A stretch of DNA of 64,000 bases. Source: Gammaproteobacteria bacterium (lineage in GTDB: Bacteria; Pseudomonadota; Gammaproteobacteria; GCA-001735895). The notes below the pieces were generated by a model. It was given only the letters and a program-made list of their open reading frames with translations. It was not told the DNA's origin and made no database searches. Location: contig JAOTYD010000007.1 in NCBI GenBank assembly GCA_029862005.1, positions 62,001-126,000 on the forward strand. The letters run 5' to 3'. The position numbers and the translations under genes are program-made. Of the stretch, positions 7,072 to 62,613 are shown piece after piece; position 1 is the stretch's first letter; each line of letters starts with the position of its first letter.

Positions 7072-7515
7072 TTGGAATTTGATATTCACAAGGTGATGGA
7101 ATTGTTGCCGCATCGTTATCCGTTCTTATTGGTGGACCGGGTTAGCGAATTCAAGCAGGGGAAAAGTTTGACGGCGATCAAGAATGTTACGATCAACGAA
7201 CCCTTTTTCCAGGGGCATTTTCCGGGCCATCCTATTATGCCTGGAGTCTTGATACTCGAAGCGATGGCACAGGCAACCGGGTTGCTCGCTTTTTCGTCGA
7301 TGGGGGACGCGCATAAATCCAAGCTTTACATGCTTGTCGGCATTGACAAGGCTCGATTCAGAGGTCAGGTCGTTCCGGGTGATCAACTGGTATTGAGTAT
7401 TTCTCTAAGTCGCAATATGCGAGGTATCGGCATGTATCAGTGCCATGCAAGCGTAAACGGGGAGGTCGTTGCCGAGGCTGAAATGATGTGTTCTGCCCAG
7501 GACCGTAATCCATGA
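7072..7515 (+). CDS. fabZ: 3-hydroxyacyl-[acyl-carrier-protein] dehydratase FabZ
   Basis: FabZ dehydrates 3-hydroxyacyl-ACP in fatty acid elongation and competes with LpxA and LpxD for the same substrate, which explains its place among lpx genes. The 147-residue hot-dog-fold protein shows [13 protein letters not shown] near the N-terminus, the catalytic histidine in [13 protein letters not shown] and the catalytic glutamate in ILEAMAQA. The start is TTG at 7072. The stop overlaps the lpxA start by four bases. Confidence 0.96.
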
Positions 7516-8282
7516 TCCACGAAACCGCTATTGTCGACGCCAGCGCACGCATTGCGCAGGACGTTGAAATTGGCGCCTATAGTATAGTCGGAGCGGACGT
7601 GGAGATTGCATCGGGAACCGTAATCGGCCCCCACGTTGTAATTATGGGCCCGAGCAACATAGGACGGGATAACCGTATTTTCCAGTTTTCGTCGGTTGGG
7701 GAAGCGCCGCAGGATAAAAAATATCAGGGTGAACAAACCAGGCTGGAACTTGGCGATCGTAACGTAATCCGCGAATTCGTGACTCTCAACCGCGGCACCG
7801 ATGAAGGTAACGGGGTAACATTGATCGGTAGCGATAACCTTTTTATGGCCTATAGCCATGTTGCGCATGATTGCGTCGTTGGTGACCACACTGTTTTTGC
7901 CAACGCTGCCTCGCTGTCCGGGCATGTTGAGGTAGGAGACTATGCGACTCTGGGGGGATTTACCTCGGTGCACCAGTTTACCCGGATCGGAAGCAAGGCT
8001 TTTTGTGGCCTTGGCTCGGTTGTTACCCAGGATATCCCACCTTTTTCTACCGCGGCCGGAAATCGTGCCAGGGTTGTCGGAATTAACAAAGAGGGACTAA
8101 AAAGAAAAGGTTTTTCCGAGAATTTAATACGCGCCTTGCATAAATCATTTCGTGAACTGTTAAAATCTAAAGGATCTAAGCAGCAGGCATTTGAGAATTT
8201 GCAGCCTCTATGTGATCAGTACCCAGAGGTTAAAGAATTCGTCGATTTTGTTAAAAATAGTAAGAGAGGAATAGCCAGTTAG
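7512..8282 (+). CDS. lpxA: UDP-N-acetylglucosamine O-acyltransferase LpxA
   Basis: LpxA catalyses the first step of lipid A synthesis, moving a 3-hydroxyacyl chain from ACP to the 3-OH of UDP-GlcNAc. At 256 residues it has the family size, with about ten hexapeptide repeat coils followed by a helical C-terminal domain. The catalytic histidine lies in [12 protein letters not shown], and the substrate segment QDKKYQGE is present. It is the last gene of this operon. lpxB, which usually follows, is not here, and an unrelated large gene begins 65 bases downstream. Confidence 0.97.
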
Positions 8283-8347: not shown

Positions 8348-11300
8348 ATGAAAGTACCACCCCGAGTTTTGGGTATTGTTTACGCGGTTTTCCTGTCCAT
8401 TCTGGTAGGCCAGGCCCAGGCGTTTGAAATCTTGCATTTCATCGAGGCGAAGGAGCATATCCAGGCATTGAAAAATGCCTCAGGACTAAAACTCACCGAT
8501 GATGGTATCGTTTACCTAACCAGCCAGGAAAACGGAACCATTTTAAAGATTGCCGACGGCAAGATTGAAGCTAACGGTTTAGTACCCTCGGCATTTTCAG
8601 ATTTCGATCTAGGCGGAATAGGAGTATTGCCTGATGGTAACCTTGTCGTCGTTAACGAAGGCTCGAGTCAGGTTGCTATTCTCAATTCGGACTTGAGACT
8701 GATCACCCGGTTCTCCCGGTCCGGTAGCAGTCCGGGTGAACTCAAAGCTCCCGGGCCGATCACCGCATCGATCAATAGGAATATTTATGTCGGTGATGTA
8801 AAAAACAGGCAAATCAGCGTATTTAACGATCAGGGTCTGTACTTGCATAGTTTTGGCAAGCATGATTCCAGCGTTGGCGAGCTACTAAAACCAACCCACG
8901 TCAGCATCGACGCCGAGGAAAACGTATACGTCCTCGAAGGCACGGATCGCCTGTCTATATTCGATTTGTATGGAAAGCTGATATCGCGGATCAAGTTCAG
9001 CGAGCTAAAAGAACTTTTCGGCAATGTTCCAGAAATAAGCGCGATGACTACGGACCTGAATGGAAATCTGTATCTCGGCGACCGGGTAAGCAATCGAATA
9101 TCGATTTTTGACTGGCGCAAAAAAAAGATGCTGGACGTATTTGGAGTATTCGGTCAAGAACGTAGGCAATACCGTGATATCAGCTATCTATCTGTCAATG
9201 CGCTTGGACAACTCGCGGTACTCGACAAAATAAATAACAAAGTTGAGGTATATCAGCTGGATCAAACCCGTTTCAAGGCCCCGCTTGCCAGGGACAGGAT
9301 AAAGATTGGTGCCAGGACTCAGGCATCGTGTGCGGTGGTCAAGGCTTTTATCGACGACAAAATCCTGTGCATCAAGCCAAATAACCAGGGTATCGTTATT
9401 TTAGGATCCGATGGCACGGAACTGGGCAGGTTTGCCGAATTAGCCAAGAAACCTTCTTCAATCGATGTTGGTGATCAAACAGTCGCGGTACTCGACAGGG
9501 ATTATTTGCATGCCTTTTATCACGACGGCAAACATGTATTTTCGATTGGACGGCGTGGATCAGCGGCTGGAGATTTTAAGCAACCAAGTCATGTTTTCAT
9601 ACATGGCGGTTTATATTACGTTGCCGACAGGGGTAACAATCGGGTGCAGGTATTTGCTGCCGATGGAAAATTTCTCGAAGAAATCAAATCCCGTCAAGGT
9701 GAAGAGAGTCTTTTCATCGAAATCGGACCGATCGTAGTCGATAGTAAGCAAAATCTTTATGTTGCCGATGGCGGTACCCTGGGCAAAATCTATGTGATCA
9801 GTAAGGATCGAAGAAAGATCGCGACGATCGATATCGATAGTGGACCGATCCACAAGATAAACAAGTTTTACGGACTGGATATTGACAAGCAGGATAGACT
9901 CTATGCGCTCGCCAGTACCGAATTCAATGATTTCTCGGTGATCGTTTACAAAGAATTGAAGCCTTACCAGGTATTTGGTGCCGGAGGTGAAAATGGAACC
10001 GCGGCGTATTTTAAGCAGGCAACTTCGGTATCGGTGGATTCGGGTGCCAAAAACAGTGTCTACGTATACGATTCCGAATTACAAACGAACACTCGCTTCG
10101 ATTTACTCGAATATCCCGATGCTGCCTTTGGATTAAGGATCTCGGCAGATAATACGTTGATCAAGCTTAAATGGAGTAGCAGTAAATCACCGCTTATTGC
10201 CTGGTATGAAATCCAGGGTGCTAAGGATAGCAAAGGGCCATTTGAGGCGATTTCAAATAGTTACGATCTAAATCAAACACTTTGGGTTAGCTCGGCAGGA
10301 AGTTATAGCTGGTTCAGGGTTGTGTCAGTGAGTGCGCATGAAATTAGGGCATCGCCATCGGCACCCAAGGAAAATTCATTCCAGAGAATTGCCTCGCTTT
10401 ACCTTGCAGGTAATTTTGACGAAGTTGTCAGACTCGCGGATCGTTTGTTGACAATTGCACCAGACAATGCCGATGCGCGAAACATACTTGGTTTGAGCCT
10501 TTACCAGATAAAGGACTATACGCGGGCGATTACCGAGTTCAAGCAACTGGAAGCAGTTGAATCCTACCGCGACAAGGCGATTCGTTATCAGGTACTGGCC
10601 TTATACAATCTCGAGCAGTACCTCGATGCCCGCGAATTAATCGAAGCTCTGTTGGAACGAAACCCACCCGATGTGGAACCCTATATGATTTGCACCCGGA
10701 TAAGCCTTGAACTCGCTGATGCGATAGGCGCTGTCGGCTGTGCCGAAGATGGCCTGGCGTTACATCCGGGAAATGTCGAGCTGCGGTATTTGCTGGGTCG
10801 AGCCTATATCGACGCGGGTTTGGCCGACAAGGGCCGAACGGCTTATCAGACCATTGTTAGAACCAATCCGGATGAGCATGAAATACGACTCAGAATTGCA
10901 ATGGATTTTTACAACCTTGGCAGCTATGAGGATTCCCTTACCCAATATGAGGCGATACTCAGCGTACAACCCAAATCTGGCCAGGCGGCTGTCGGCAAGG
11001 CGAACGCTTTACTCAAGCTGGATCGTGATCAGGAGGCCAAGGCGATTGCACTGAAACTGTCTGGGAAGCAGGATACCAAAGGCGATGGTCATTATCTGCT
11101 GGGTAAAATTGCGGCAAAACAGGGTAATCACAAGGAGGCGATATTACGCTTAACCCGTGCTGGTAATGACAAGCCAGATCTCACAGATGTCTGGGTATCG
11201 CTTGCACGGTCTTATTCAGAAATCAATCAGCTCCCGAAGGCAGTAAAGGCTCTCGCTAAGGGCATCGGGCATAATCCCGAAGCCTTCGAGTTATACCTGC

Positions 11301-13312
11301 TTGCTGGCAAAATAGAACTTGAACGCCAGCAATACCCGGACGCCAACGTCTACCTCAATAAAGCAGTAGTGCTGCAACCCAATTCGTTGTTGGCACAGAA
11401 GTTATATGCGCAGGGACTGTTTGCGACTCGCAATTATCGAACCGCTAGGATCCATGCTGAAGCCGTTGCGCGTATGTCGCCCGAGGACATTGATGTACTG
11501 ATGCTGCAGGCTGATATCGCCAATCAACAGGGCAAGATCGTTTCGGCTATTGAATTTCTGAAAACGGCGATCAACCTCGATCCGGCATCACCTGAACTTC
11601 AATATCGCATCGGTCGAGTTTATCAGGATGCCAACTTGTTCGATGCATCGCGCGAACATCTTGAAAAGGCTGCGGTCATGCGGTCGTCGTGGGCAGAACC
11701 CCATGCTGCCCTGGGCAATCTCTATCGTAAACGGCGCTTGTTTGATGAGGCGGTCATGGCCTTCGAAAAAGCGGTCGCACTGGATCCGTCAGTAGAAAAT
11801 CGAGCGATCCTGAACGTGGCTTTTGCCGAACGCAAGAAGTCACTCGAATTCGCCAACAATGCACCCCAGCTATTGTTGTCGGATTTGAATCTGCAAAGGT
11901 TGTTCTCGGCTGCCTATAAAAAATACCAGGATCAGCCAATCGGCAGCGTGAAACTGAAAAATGCTGGAGCTACCGACTATAAAAACCTGAAATTATCGTT
12001 TGAGATAAAGGAGTTTATGGATTTCCCATCTTCAGTCGATATTGCGACGATCAAGGGAAACGAAATCCAGGAGATCCCGATCAAAGCGACCTTCAACAAT
12101 AAGATCCTTGAAGTGGACGAAGACACCGGTGTTCAGGTGGAAGTCAAACTTGTTTACTCGCAAGATGGTCAGAAAGACGAGATATCGCTGACTCAGCCGA
12201 TGACGATATATGGAAAGAATGCGATTATCTGGGGTGATCCGGCTATGGTTGGTTCATTCGTAACGCCAAAGGATGACACTCTTAGAAATTATGTACGCCA
12301 GGTAGCAAATGCCTTTGAACCAGATCCGGGTCCACTAAACAACAAACTGGTCTCGGCGATGGCGTTTTTTAGCAGCCTGACGGCGGCAGGAACCAGTTAC
12401 ATTATCGATCCCAATACCCCTTTTGCCGATTTACGCGACGATCAAATTGACTATGTGCAATTTCCGCGCGAAACCCTGCACCTGAAGAGCGGCGATTGTG
12501 ATGATTTATCGGTATTGCTCTCCGCAGGCCTTGAAAACCTCGGCGTTAAAACCGCATTGATCGAGATACCCGGGCATTTATTCCTGATGTTTGATACCGG
12601 CATTGCCGCGAGCGACTCAGGTTTAATCAGCCAGGATAGCAGTTTAATTGCTTTCAAGGATGACAGGGTGTGGATACCGCTGGAAGCGACCATGATCAAT
12701 ACCAATTTCATCGAGGCCTGGGCTGAGGGCGCGAACAAATACCAGGCGGCGCTGGCAGCGGGTGAGCTCAGTATCATTGATCTGGAACAAGCCTGGCAGG
12801 AATATAAACCGGTAACCCTGCGCAAGGCCAGCTATTCGATCAAAATGCCCGAAAAGAGGCGTACCGAAACCCTGGTAAAACAGGCGCGAAACGAATTATT
12901 GATAAAAAGCATCGATCGCCTGGTATTGCCTTACAAAACCATGGTGGCCAATGACCCCAGTAATATTAAGGCGCGCTTGCAGATCGCTATTCTTTATGCC
13001 CGTTATGGTCTATATAAAGATGCAGAGATAGCGTTTGAAGCGCTGGATGAGCTTGCACCGGACAATAGTGCGGTGAAGACCAACCAGGGTAACCTGTACT
13101 TCCTGCAGCAGGCGTATGACAAGGCGATTGAGAATTATTCGCGGGCGGCTGAACTGGACAGTGACGATGGTGGTATCTGGATCAACCTGGCAATGGCGCA
13201 GTACAAGGCTGGCGATTTAAAGCAGGCGAAAACCAGTTACGAGAGGGCGATTCAGTTGAACGCAGATCTGAAAAAAGAGTATGATGCGTTTAGTAAACTT
13301 CTGAGCCAATAG
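8348..13312 (+). CDS. Giant exported protein: NHL propeller, TPR and transglutaminase-like domains
   Basis: A 1654-residue multidomain protein of unknown function. A signal peptide ends near Ala25. Residues of about 30-590 form repeats of the NHL/six-bladed propeller type (phrases such as NIYVGDVKNRQISVF and YYVADRGNNRVQVF). A fibronectin-III-like segment covers about 595-670 and TPR repeats about 678-1165. A beta-rich stretch follows, then a transglutaminase-like fold at about 1290-1460 with Cys1384 in KSGDCDDLSVL and His1410 in IPGHLFLMF. Further TPRs run from about 1530 to the end. The architecture suggests a secreted or periplasmic scaffold with a cysteine-protease-like enzymatic domain. 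The 3' neighbour also carries TPR-like repeats and a signal peptide, 11 bases away. The domain calls are by eye. Confidence 0.85.
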   Translation: MKVPPRVLGIVYAVFLSILVGQAQAFEILHFIEAKEHIQALKNASGLKLTDDGIVYLTSQENGTILKIADGKIEANGLVPSAFSDFDLGGIGVLPDGNLVVVNEGSSQVAILNSDLRLITRFSRSGSSPGELKAPGPITASINRNIYVGDVKNRQISVFNDQGLYLHSFGKHDSSVGELLKPTHVSIDAEENVYVLEGTDRLSIFDLYGKLISRIKFSELKELFGNVPEISAMTTDLNGNLYLGDRVSNRISIFDWRKKKMLDVFGVFGQERRQYRDISYLSVNALGQLAVLDKINNKVEVYQLDQTRFKAPLARDRIKIGARTQASCAVVKAFIDDKILCIKPNNQGIVILGSDGTELGRFAELAKKPSSIDVGDQTVAVLDRDYLHAFYHDGKHVFSIGRRGSAAGDFKQPSHVFIHGGLYYVADRGNNRVQVFAADGKFLEEIKSRQGEESLFIEIGPIVVDSKQNLYVADGGTLGKIYVISKDRRKIATIDIDSGPIHKINKFYGLDIDKQDRLYALASTEFNDFSVIVYKELKPYQVFGAGGENGTAAYFKQATSVSVDSGAKNSVYVYDSELQTNTRFDLLEYPDAAFGLRISADNTLIKLKWSSSKSPLIAWYEIQGAKDSKGPFEAISNSYDLNQTLWVSSAGSYSWFRVVSVSAHEIRASPSAPKENSFQRIASLYLAGNFDEVVRLADRLLTIAPDNADARNILGLSLYQIKDYTRAITEFKQLEAVESYRDKAIRYQVLALYNLEQYLDARELIEALLERNPPDVEPYMICTRISLELADAIGAVGCAEDGLALHPGNVELRYLLGRAYIDAGLADKGRTAYQTIVRTNPDEHEIRLRIAMDFYNLGSYEDSLTQYEAILSVQPKSGQAAVGKANALLKLDRDQEAKAIALKLSGKQDTKGDGHYLLGKIAAKQGNHKEAILRLTRAGNDKPDLTDVWVSLARSYSEINQLPKAVKALAKGIGHNPEAFELYLLAGKIELERQQYPDANVYLNKAVVLQPNSLLAQKLYAQGLFATRNYRTARIHAEAVARMSPEDIDVLMLQADIANQQGKIVSAIEFLKTAINLDPASPELQYRIGRVYQDANLFDASREHLEKAAVMRSSWAEPHAALGNLYRKRRLFDEAVMAFEKAVALDPSVENRAILNVAFAERKKSLEFANNAPQLLLSDLNLQRLFSAAYKKYQDQPIGSVKLKNAGATDYKNLKLSFEIKEFMDFPSSVDIATIKGNEIQEIPIKATFNNKILEVDEDTGVQVEVKLVYSQDGQKDEISLTQPMTIYGKNAIIWGDPAMVGSFVTPKDDTLRNYVRQVANAFEPDPGPLNNKLVSAMAFFSSLTAAGTSYIIDPNTPFADLRDDQIDYVQFPRETLHLKSGDCDDLSVLLSAGLENLGVKTALIEIPGHLFLMFDTGIAASDSGLISQDSSLIAFKDDRVWIPLEATMINTNFIEAWAEGANKYQAALAAGELSIIDLEQAWQEYKPVTLRKASYSIKMPEKRRTETLVKQARNELLIKSIDRLVLPYKTMVANDPSNIKARLQIAILYARYGLYKDAEIAFEALDELAPDNSAVKTNQGNLYFLQQAYDKAIENYSRAAELDSDDGGIWINLAMAQYKAGDLKQAKTSYERAIQLNADLKKEYDAFSKLLSQ

Positions 13313-13323
13313 GAACTAAAATT

Positions 13324-13866
13324 GTGAAGAAAATTGTGACTATATTATTGTTTGTTGGCGTTTTTGCTTTCAACCTGCCAACTATCGCCCAGGCGGCGAC
13401 TACGATTAACGAAACCAGCTCCCATAGCGTGTTCAAGGGTTTGTTTAAATCGGTATGGACCCATCTGAAGTCATATAATCCAACTCAAAAGCAGTCTGCC
13501 AAATCGACCCAGACCTACGTCGCGGGAATTCGGGGTGCAGAATCGACCGATACGCTATTGAAACCCTATTGGAAAGCTGATTTAACCCAGGACGAGCGTT
13601 TTCAGGCGGAACTGGAAGATTTCAGCCAGGCGCAGAATATGATGGACGAAGGTGAACTGGAATCGGCCGTGGAACTGTTTGACGGTTTTCTCAGCACCTA
13701 TCGACAAAGCGCCATGCGCCCGAATGCCCTGTTTGGTAAGGGTATCAGCCTGGCCGGCCTGGGTCAGAAACAAAAGTCCCGGGCTATCATGCGGCAATTC
13801 ATCGACGAAAACCCAAATCATCCGCTGCGCAAGGATGCCGGACAGGTTATCAAGCAACTGAATTGA
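13324..13866 (+). CDS. Small exported TPR-like protein
   Basis: This 180-residue protein starts at GTG 13324, with a signal peptide ending near the Ala-Gln-Ala-Ala stretch at residues 22-25. Residues of about 90-180 resemble tetratricopeptide helices (phrases such as GELESAVELFDGFL and LFGKGISLAGLGQKQKSRAI), similar to the YbgF/CpoB type of periplasmic TPR. The middle is low in recognisable motifs. It lies 11 bases after the giant propeller/TPR protein and is very likely co-transcribed, so it may be its partner. Specific function unknown. Confidence 0.75.
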   Translation: MKKIVTILLFVGVFAFNLPTIAQAATTINETSSHSVFKGLFKSVWTHLKSYNPTQKQSAKSTQTYVAGIRGAESTDTLLKPYWKADLTQDERFQAELEDFSQAQNMMDEGELESAVELFDGFLSTYRQSAMRPNALFGKGISLAGLGQKQKSRAIMRQFIDENPNHPLRKDAGQVIKQLN

Positions 13867-13925: not shown

Positions 13926-14591
13926 GTGAATATTCTCGCCATCGATACTTCCACCGAGGCCTGCTCCGCCGCGTTGTTACGCGACGATGGCGTGATTTTT
14001 CACGAATTTGAAATTGCTCCGCGCCGGCACATGCGGCTGTTACCCGAAATGATGGACCGGGTGATCACCACGTCTGACCTGCAAAAGTCGATGCTTTCGC
14101 ATTGTGCTTTCAGTAATGGCCCGGGCGCGTTTACCGGTATTCGTATTGCCGCCGCTCAGGCCCAGGGAATTGCGCTCGCGTTAAACATACCGCTGGTACC
14201 CGTTTCAACACTGGCGGTTCTGGCGCAGGTTTGCCTGGATCGAACCGACTACGATAGTACGCTGGTAGCGCTGGACGCGCGGATGCAGGAGTTATACTGG
14301 GCTGTTTATCATCGAGGCGGGGACGGTTGTGCCGAGCTCGTTGGAACGGAGCGGTTAAGCAGCTTAAGCGAGGTTGTAATCGATTCGGCAATCGAATTCG
14401 GTGGTGGACATGGCTGGCTCGACGCGTTACGCGATAGTGTCGTGTTTCCAGTTGATAGCGGATTATTGCCCGATGCGAGGTCACTACTCAAGCTTGCAAA
14501 ACAAGCGATCGATCGGGGTCTCGTGGTTGATGCAGGCCGGATCAATATCAATTACCTTCGCAACCAGGTTGCCGAAAAAGCTCGACCTTGA
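13926..14591 (+). CDS. tsaB: tRNA t6A synthesis protein TsaB
   Basis: TsaB is the scaffold that pairs with TsaD and, with TsaE and TsaC, makes N6-threonylcarbamoyladenosine at position 37 of ANN-decoding tRNAs. The 221-residue protein starts at GTG 13926 with the family N-terminus NILAIDTSTEACSAAL. It continues with the conserved SNGPGAFTGIRI segment of the ASKHA fold. Its partner gene tsaE lies at the right end of this window. It overlaps the start of truD. Confidence 0.93.
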   Translation: MNILAIDTSTEACSAALLRDDGVIFHEFEIAPRRHMRLLPEMMDRVITTSDLQKSMLSHCAFSNGPGAFTGIRIAAAQAQGIALALNIPLVPVSTLAVLAQVCLDRTDYDSTLVALDARMQELYWAVYHRGGDGCAELVGTERLSSLSEVVIDSAIEFGGGHGWLDALRDSVVFPVDSGLLPDARSLLKLAKQAIDRGLVVDAGRININYLRNQVAEKARP

Positions 14592-60840: not shown

Positions 60841-62613
60841 TTGTCAAAGATTCTGACCTTACCCTCCCATCTGATCAACCAGATTGCTGCTGGAGAGGTC
60901 GTTGAGAGGCCCGCTTCGGTGGTCAAGGAACTTGTTGAAAACAGCCTCGATGCAGGTGCCGGAGCGGTAACAGTCGAAGTCGAAGCCGGCGGGACCCGGA
61001 TGATCCGGGTCAGTGACGACGGCTGTGGCATCGGGCGTGATCAGCTCGCCAGCGCACTCTCGCGCCATGCCACCAGCAAGATAAGCAGCCTCGAGGATCT
61101 AGAAAGCATCGCTTCGCTTGGATTTCGTGGCGAAGCACTACCCAGCATTGCGTCGGTGTCGCGGTTAAACCTGATATCGCGGCTGCAGCAAGAGGACAGT
61201 GCCTGGAAATTGCAGGCGCGTGAAGATGCAGAACCCATGCCTGATCCGTTCCAGCAAGGCACGCAGGTCGAAGTGCTTGAGCTTTTCTATAATGTTCCCG
61301 CGCGTAAGAAATTTTTACGTACCGAGCAAACTGAATACCGACACATCGAAAACCTGTTCAAAAACCTCGCGCTCAGCCATCCCGCGGTCGCATTCAAGTT
61401 GATTCATAACCAAAAGGTAATCTACCAGTTACCTTCGGTGCAAAACCTGAATGACCAGCGTCGACGGCTCGCGTCATTATGTGGAAAGGCTTTTGCCGAA
61501 AGCCTGATCGAAATTGATATCTCCATTGATAACCTGAACCTGCAGGGTTGGGTTGCATTACCGACCTTTAACCGCAGCCAGGCTGACATGCAGTACTTCT
61601 TCGTCAATAAGCGCATGGTAAGAGACAAGCTGGTTAATCACGCGGTGCGCCAGGCGTATCAGGACGTGTTATTTCATGGTCGACATCCCGCCTATGTTTT
61701 GTCATTGTCGATGGACGCGCGTGAGCTGGATGTCAACGTGCACCCGCAAAAGCACGAAGTGCGCTTCCGTAATTCGCGCCTGGTGCACGATTTCCTGTTT
61801 CGCAGCCTGCACCAGGCGCTCGGGGAGGTGCAGCCAGAACAGCAAATTGATTCACCGGCGTTTGCGTTTACCGATCGTACAAGTGCAGCAGAACCTCCCC
61901 AGTCGGGCCTGAACCTCAGCCAGTTTCACGCGGGCGACCGGTCGGGCAGTGTACGCGAGCAAATGCGATCTTACGCCGTGCTTTTAAATCCGGAGACGCG
62001 ACCAGTCGCTGAAGATTCGCAGTCGCAGGTTCCACCGCTTGGATTCGCAATAGCGCAACTTAAAGGTATTTATATTCTGGCGGAAAACAGCGAGGGGTTG
62101 ATTGTCGTGGATATGCACGCCGCCCATGAGCGCATTGTTTATGAGCGCATGAAACAGAATGCAGCGCAAGAGGATGTTATTGCGCAGCCGTTGCTGGTTC
62201 CGATGGCTTTCAATGTCAGCAAGGGAGAAGCCGAACTGGTTGAGGAAAATACGGAACTTTTCAATCATCTCGGATTTAACATCGAGCGTATTGGTCCGGA
62301 ACAGGTGCGTGTGCGCGCAATTCCGGCTTTACTTAAAAACGCAGACAGTGAGCAGTTGCTGCGTGATGTACTGGCAGACCTGGTAGAACACGGTCGTTCA
62401 GAGCGTATCCAGGATTACCAGAACGAGATGTTGTCGACCATGGCCTGCCATGCTTCGGTGCGCGCCAATCGATTGCTTTCAGTCGATGAAATGAATGCCT
62501 TGCTCCGCGATATCGAACAAACCGAACGCAGCGGCCAGTGCAATCACGGCAGGCCTACCTGGAAGCAGCTAAGCCTGGAGCAGCTCGACAAGCTATTTCT
62601 GCGCGGTCAGTAA
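60841..62613 (+). CDS. mutL: DNA mismatch repair protein MutL (endonuclease type)
   Basis: A 590-residue GHKL ATPase that couples mismatch recognition to strand excision. The N-terminus has VENSLDAGA, SDDGCGI, RHATSKI and GFRGEAL motifs. The C-terminal domain has DMHAAHERIVYE (Asp424 onward), matching the DQHAX2EX4E nuclease motif with Gln to Met, and CNHGRPT near the end. These point to the endonuclease-active MutL found in bacteria without MutH. The start is TTG at 60841. Confidence 0.95.
   Translation: MSKILTLPSHLINQIAAGEVVERPASVVKELVENSLDAGAGAVTVEVEAGGTRMIRVSDDGCGIGRDQLASALSRHATSKISSLEDLESIASLGFRGEALPSIASVSRLNLISRLQQEDSAWKLQAREDAEPMPDPFQQGTQVEVLELFYNVPARKKFLRTEQTEYRHIENLFKNLALSHPAVAFKLIHNQKVIYQLPSVQNLNDQRRRLASLCGKAFAESLIEIDISIDNLNLQGWVALPTFNRSQADMQYFFVNKRMVRDKLVNHAVRQAYQDVLFHGRHPAYVLSLSMDARELDVNVHPQKHEVRFRNSRLVHDFLFRSLHQALGEVQPEQQIDSPAFAFTDRTSAAEPPQSGLNLSQFHAGDRSGSVREQMRSYAVLLNPETRPVAEDSQSQVPPLGFAIAQLKGIYILAENSEGLIVVDMHAAHERIVYERMKQNAAQEDVIAQPLLVPMAFNVSKGEAELVEENTELFNHLGFNIERIGPEQVRVRAIPALLKNADSEQLLRDVLADLVEHGRSERIQDYQNEMLSTMACHASVRANRLLSVDEMNALLRDIEQTERSGQCNHGRPTWKQLSLEQLDKLFLRGQ

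Follow-up and report, generated by a model that had tools for sequence, protein, structure and literature searches.

Introduction

LapG, a periplasmic enzyme of the BTLCP family with a transglutaminase (TG)/papain fold and a catalytic cysteine, acts on a specific surface protein and illustrates that a periplasmic TG-like enzyme is able to work as a specific protease (PMC3032545). HvyA, a BTLCP protein and capsule restriction factor of Caulobacter, is likewise periplasmic and TG-like and needs its catalytic residues for function (PMC4241560). Both proteins are small and use a Cys-His-Asp triad; LapG consists of a single domain and is paired with LapA and LapD. A precedent of another kind is MtxA of Magnetospirillum, an exported TPR and Ig-like protein encoded beside a CHASE2 cyclase (PMC4439547).

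The locus described here is located in a window of 64,000 nucleotides (positions 62,001 to 126,000 of contig JAOTYD010000007.1, assembly GCA_029862005.1) from a gammaproteobacterium and comprises two adjacent genes whose products are referred to as P1 and P2. P1 differs from LapG in its Cys-His-Glu residues, its 1654-residue length, its propeller and TPR arrays and its pairing with P2, and from HvyA also in its gene neighborhood. Pfam searches of the TG domain of P1 returned no match to the LapG/BTLCP family profile, and the Cys-His-Asp signature of that family is not preserved, the third residue being Glu in all P1 homologues. The similarity to MtxA concerns the gene arrangement only, as far as the accessible part of that source goes, which describes no TG domain. 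DUF553 (PF04473) and Transglut_core (PF01841) show weak profile similarity around the catalytic cysteine, but the window protein stays below the curated cut-offs of both.

Positions 11-330 of NF058533, the NCBIfam profile of the anti-phage protein ProA, match the Ig-like and TG domains both in P1 and in homologues from other phyla, with E-values between 6e-9 and 9e-15, but the score reaches only about 43 bits where the cut-off lies at 1500 (1903 positions), and the remaining approximately 1570 positions are not shared. The module in common corresponds to P1 residues 1197-1507 (window 11936-12868). PADLOC gave no match, and no relevant publication on ProA was found in the open-access literature; an anti-phage role deduced from NF058533 was rejected, as only the Ig+TG module is common and PADLOC was without a match.

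The pair is a variant built from known domains, widespread but unnamed. No description of this architecture was found in the open-access literature, although an account in a subscription journal is possible. None of the libraries searched has a curated family for this large protein with a predicted export signal, an invariant thiol site and a near-constant partner; many uncultured Gammaproteobacteria carry it, as do another class of the phylum and most of the Elusimicrobia loci found. If it works as proposed below, it would join LapG and HvyA as a further periplasmic enzyme of the TG-like type that has a specific target.

Genomic organization of the locus

Both open reading frames of the original prediction were exact. 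The gene of P1 (8348..13312, + strand) encodes a propeller/Fn3/TPR/Ig-like/TG-like/TPR protein of 1654 aa, recognized from the open reading frame list, Pfam, homologues and AF2 models; the gene of P2 (13324..13866, + strand) starts 11 bp after it and encodes a TPR-like protein of 180 aa with no cysteine. The gene order is lpxD-fabZ-lpxA-P1-P2-tsaB-truD (neighbors named by sequence inspection), with lpxA at 7512..8282 (+) and tsaB at 13926..14591 (+). A promoter/terminator scan found no + strand terminator in the gap between lpxA and P1. Only in the family of the window organism is lpxA the upstream neighbor of P1; where the pair is absent there, tsaB stands close behind lpxA. In other lineages the pair is located among unrelated genes, so the adjacency to lpxA is merely its local address. 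A comparison of loci across lineages found no third neighbor gene common to all of them. The neighbors in Elusimicrobia include genes that look succinate dehydrogenase-like from their sequence. In several gammaproteobacteria (L050:6198-15778, L202:8217-17996, L117) P1 is divergent from a MoxR/DUF58-like/TgpA-like operon, the TgpA-like member of which is by appearance a transglutaminase-domain membrane protein.

A total of 79 loci was examined (78 from other contigs and the window), and P2 was present just behind P1 in 65 of them. Half of the 14 loci without P2 end within 315 bases (L061, L073, L093, L095, L096, L117 and L120). In the other seven (L118, L121, L122, L123, L127, L129 and L131; three Elusimicrobia loci and four single-lineage loci) P2 was not found despite sufficient room, which indicates that the TG core can function in its absence. 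Among 41 genomes of the window organism's family, P1 was detected in 28 and P2 in 27, with both absent in 12. The two disagree in three genomes: P1 is cut by the contig end in G022, the contig ends just after P1 in G027 (the start of P2 is visible as L067), and an N-terminal P1 fragment and P2 lie on separate contigs in G004; these disagreements are thus due to contig ends or to P1 being split over contigs. The co-occurrence check suggested with the original prediction therefore turned out positive, P1 and P2 being kept or lost together. P1 and P2 are a genuine gene pair that persists at unrelated loci.

P2 homologues share a conserved motif, GIRGAESTDTLLKPYWK in the window (13525..13575, +), of the form GxRGA...YWK; the pattern [GA]xRG...W[KE] is present in 53 of 54 P2 proteins. 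The gene pairing and the conservation of this motif make it likely that P2 binds P1. Cleavage of P2 itself is conceivable but doubtful.

Domain architecture

P1 starts with a Sec-type signal peptide (residues 1-25, 8348..8422, +; MKVPPRVLGIVYAVFLSILVGQAQA, cleavage after AQA) and P2 with another (VKKIVTILLFVGVFAFNLPTIAQA), both read by eye. Neither has a lipobox, and hydrophobic N-termini are also present in P1 homologues. In line with the exported protein that had been predicted, these signals suggest that P1 is exported via Sec, and P2 too.

The mature part of P1 begins with an NHL-type beta-propeller (approximately residues 26-585, 8423..10102, +), which exceeds the Pfam gathering cut-offs of PF01436 (42.3 bits, cut-off 20) and PF17170 (48.9 bits, cut-off 22.9). 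It is followed by an Fn3-like segment (approximately residues 586-680, 10103..10387, +); PF00041 matches this segment in nine of 27 scanned homologues (best E 2e-8), and the window copy has no Pfam match. TPR array 1 (approximately residues 690-1150, 10415..11797, +) was assigned by Pfam, belongs to the long form only and is absent from the Elusimicrobiota homologues; many TPRs of P1 score above the Pfam cut-offs. An Ig-like beta-sandwich (approximately residues 1172-1292, 11861..12223, +), recognized from the strands of the AF2 model and matched by no Pfam family, adjoins the TG-like catalytic domain (approximately residues 1293-1500, 12224..12847, +; AF2, Foldseek and weak profiles). TPR block 2 (approximately residues 1520-1650, 12905..13297, +; Pfam and AF2) closes the protein. 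Most of the domain list originally proposed was thus recovered, the propeller and TPRs by Pfam and the TG domain by AF2 and Foldseek, while the Fn3 segment is recognizable through homologues only. The TG domain is indeed flanked by TPR array 1 and TPR block 2, as had been proposed. Full-length orthologues with all domains occur in many genomes, and the set of domains is not a product of chance. Between distant gammaproteobacteria, identity amounts to 53-60% in the Ig+TG core versus 28-32% in the propeller and TPR array 1; the core is the most conserved part of P1.

P1 contains five cysteines (328, 341, 782, 798 and 1384), all of which are kept in 37 of 37 complete long-form homologues. The 25 short-form proteins of the alignment retain Cys1384 and show gaps where the other four cysteines would be. 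Spacing and conservation point to two probable disulfides, Cys328 with Cys341 (9329..9370, +) and Cys782 with Cys798 (10691..10741, +), each invariant in the 37 long-form homologues. In the simplest and likely reading, four of the five cysteines are paired in two disulfides, formed in an oxidizing compartment, and the fifth provides the free catalytic thiol.

The TG-like domain and its predicted triad

At the sequence level the TG domain of the window protein is matched weakly, by DUF553 with E 0.019 and by Transglut_core with 12.5 bits (gathering cut-off 23). Among 57 homologues, Transglut_core matches 44 (best E 7.7e-5) and DUF553 37 at E<=0.1. When the TG profile was searched against the sequences of proteins of known structure, no match resulted. 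AF2 models were computed for P1 residues 1155-1654 (mean pLDDT 91.0) and for the TG domain alone, residues 1286-1506 (mean pLDDT 91.6, pTM 0.91), the latter because a first fold search had been swamped by TPR structures. A Foldseek search with the TG model gave LapG as the best match, with mouse PNGase and TG-like cysteine proteases also ranking high (E about 5e-3, probability mostly 0.96-1.0, TM-scores low at 0.25-0.38).

In the model of residues 1286-1506, Cys1384 opens a helix, His1410 opens a strand and Glu1446 stands directly after the next long strand; this predicted succession of Cys-helix, His-strand and Glu is the order of papain and transglutaminases. All three residues are invariant in 57 aligned homologues from several phyla, as well as in 62 full-length proteins. 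Their codons are at 12497..12499 (Cys1384, in the motif KSGDCDDL), 12575..12577 (His1410) and 12683..12685 (Glu1446, in W-I-P-L-E-A-T), all on the + strand. Cys1384 and His1410 are the residues named in the original prediction, which had anticipated a conserved Asp after His1410; an invariant Glu was found instead, and N, Q, D or E may serve as the third residue of papain-like enzymes (PMC10318531). The proposed papain/transglutaminase-type triad consequently consists of Cys1384, His1410 and Glu1446. The predicted order of residues and secondary structure, together with the similarity to solved members, places the domain in the papain-like/transglutaminase superfamily. The fold expected around Cys1384 was thus found in the models, and the domain almost certainly has the TG fold. 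From fold and invariance it is likely that P1 is an active thiol enzyme.

The genome of the window organism encodes three other Transglut_core proteins over the cut-off, in frames of 690, 326 and 227 aa (G000:C31:21151-21480, C4:79023-79199 and C36:8338-8553).

Phylogenetic distribution

Full-length long forms occur in the window organism's family, in other gammaproteobacteria, among them the gamma 3 symbiont of Olavius algarvensis and Thiohalomonas denitrificans (according to the record title), and in eight genomes of f202, a family that belongs to another class of the phylum. Short forms of approximately 1155 aa, which lack the first TPR array, are found in Elusimicrobiota, and genome G707 (L200) has a propeller-Fn3-Ig-TG-TPR form of 1245 aa with P2. 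Single Ig+TG homologues carry other N-termini: a regulator-type propeller (L118), an OMP barrel (L131), a weakly FlgO/CsgG-like region (L129) and an unassigned region (L127). In the tree of the core, the gammaproteobacteria, f202 and Elusimicrobia form separate groups (supports: Elusimicrobia 100/98, f202 100/99, gammaproteobacteria plus f202 99/100, gammaproteobacteria alone 89/86); the four single homologues and G707 are placed on long, uncertain branches. The TG core was detected in eight of 370 genomes of the class sample and in 12 of 397 of the phylum sample. Since Elusimicrobiota also carry it and four more groups have it singly, it is uncommon but not unique; the original prediction had called the domain order rare. 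A plasmid search gave one weak archaeal match to the P1 core (Halarchaeum, E 5e-4) and no relatives of P2.

In genome G535 the P1 frame is split into ORFs of 643 and 1045 aa (L207:5325-10437), and a second P1 copy on contig C34 has an open frame of 1705 aa.

Proposed function and alternatives

On balance, P1 is probably a periplasmic thiol protease or transamidase, with the propeller and TPRs positioning its partners and P2 as dedicated partner or substrate. P1 and P2 would form a two-gene periplasmic unit, both members being exported by Sec; two conserved disulfides would hold P1, and the fifth invariant cysteine, Cys1384, would form a thiol active site with His1410 and Glu1446. To judge from the domain types, the propeller, Fn3 segment and TPR arrays may bind and position protein partners. 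P2 would be the dedicated partner, its GxRGA...YWK segment most likely docking on P1 as substrate or regulator. The target of P1 is presumably periplasmic, and the envelope-associated enzyme acting on protein partners that was originally proposed is a reasonable inference. Binding, cutting or modification of P2 by P1 lends itself to direct and simple tests, owing to the pairing of the genes, the motif of P2 and the presence of just one presumed free thiol.

As to the chemistry, P1 would be likelier to cleave an envelope protein at a peptide or amide bond, in the manner of LapG, than to form Gln-Lys crosslinks. A true transglutaminase or transamidase, with P2 or envelope proteins being crosslinked or attached, would suit the predicted TG fold and triad and the well conserved lysine in the YWK motif of P2; it is nevertheless rather unlikely, given that the nearest folds are those of hydrolases (LapG, PNGase) and that LapG, a periplasmic TG-like protein of known chemistry, cleaves its target (PMC3032545).

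A signaling role was considered on account of the neighbors of some P1 genes. In three unrelated lineages a CHASE2-cyclase gene is situated directly beside P1: upstream of P1-P2 on the same strand in G707 (L200), downstream of P1 on the same strand in Fibrobacteria (L129), and divergent from P1 in gammaproteobacteria (L078, L083 and L084). Representative neighborhoods are L200:4590-11117, L129:2-4969 and L084:3140-5350. The pair might provide a CHASE2 adenylate/guanylate cyclase with its sensory input, the periplasmic proteins detecting or processing a signal that the membrane cyclase reports inside; the arrangement recalls Magnetospirillum, where mtxA is followed by a CHASE2-cyclase gene (PMC4439547). 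The reading is weakened by the small number of cases, namely five loci representing about three independent events, and by the orthologous cyclase of the window organism's family, which is encoded on another contig and is present in 36 of 38 genomes, in relatives with the pair as well as in those lacking it. Being nearly universal in that family, the cyclase lends the link no support by its phyletic distribution. Such a role is improbable, and the CHASE2 link is a lead that is suggestive only. A broader version, in which the pair is an undescribed periplasmic signaling/processing system of Pseudomonadota and Elusimicrobiota, P2 being cleaved or modified at GxRGA...YWK upon binding of a propeller ligand, with CHASE2 readout in some lineages, is more speculative still.

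If P1 were a scaffold without catalytic activity, its TG fold having decayed, this would agree with the existence of inactive papain-like families (PMC10318531) and with the propeller and TPR regions being binding modules. Such a reading has little probability, as the triad and the surrounding motif are invariant in all aligned homologues and more conserved than the binding regions.

lpxB and the lpxA-tsaB junction

As stated in the original prediction, lpxB is absent directly after lpxA in the window. The gene is intact on contig C9 of the same genome (PF02684, E 6.8e-96), with GnnB-like and GnnA-like genes and rnhB-dnaE as its neighbors. In relatives without the pair (L171, L173, L175, L176, L177 and L178) lpxA runs straight into tsaB and truD, approximately 30-60 bases after it, likewise without lpxB. 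Since lpxB is missing at lpxA with or without the pair, the pair is no stand-in for it, and displacement of lpxB was rejected. The proposal that the pair substitutes for lpxB in lipid A or lipopolysaccharide synthesis, prompted by its position next to lpxD-fabZ-lpxA in the window organism's family, is extremely implausible on these grounds and in view of the other loci that the pair occupies in other lineages; a general role in envelope maintenance, apart from lpxB replacement, is conceivable.

In G005 (L170), a congener without the pair, a lpxA-tsaB gap of 452 bases holds a decayed P2 remnant in two pieces (L170:7300-7750, G005:C46; combined tblastn E 7e-11). Because this remnant persists between lpxA and tsaB, the pair appears to have been lost, rather than never present, at least in that genome.

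The region around lpxB on contig C9 (L052:6914-11833, G000:C9) contains an apparent run of a GnnA-like oxidoreductase, a GnnB-like aminotransferase and lpxB beside rnhB and dnaE, named by sequence inspection, which suggests that the organism may produce a diamino-sugar lipid A. A similar run, its genes named in the same way, is found near lpxA in G126 (L182). Also beside lpxB on C9 (L052:6914-8020) is the gene of a 368-aa putative SABATH-type (plant carboxyl) methyltransferase.
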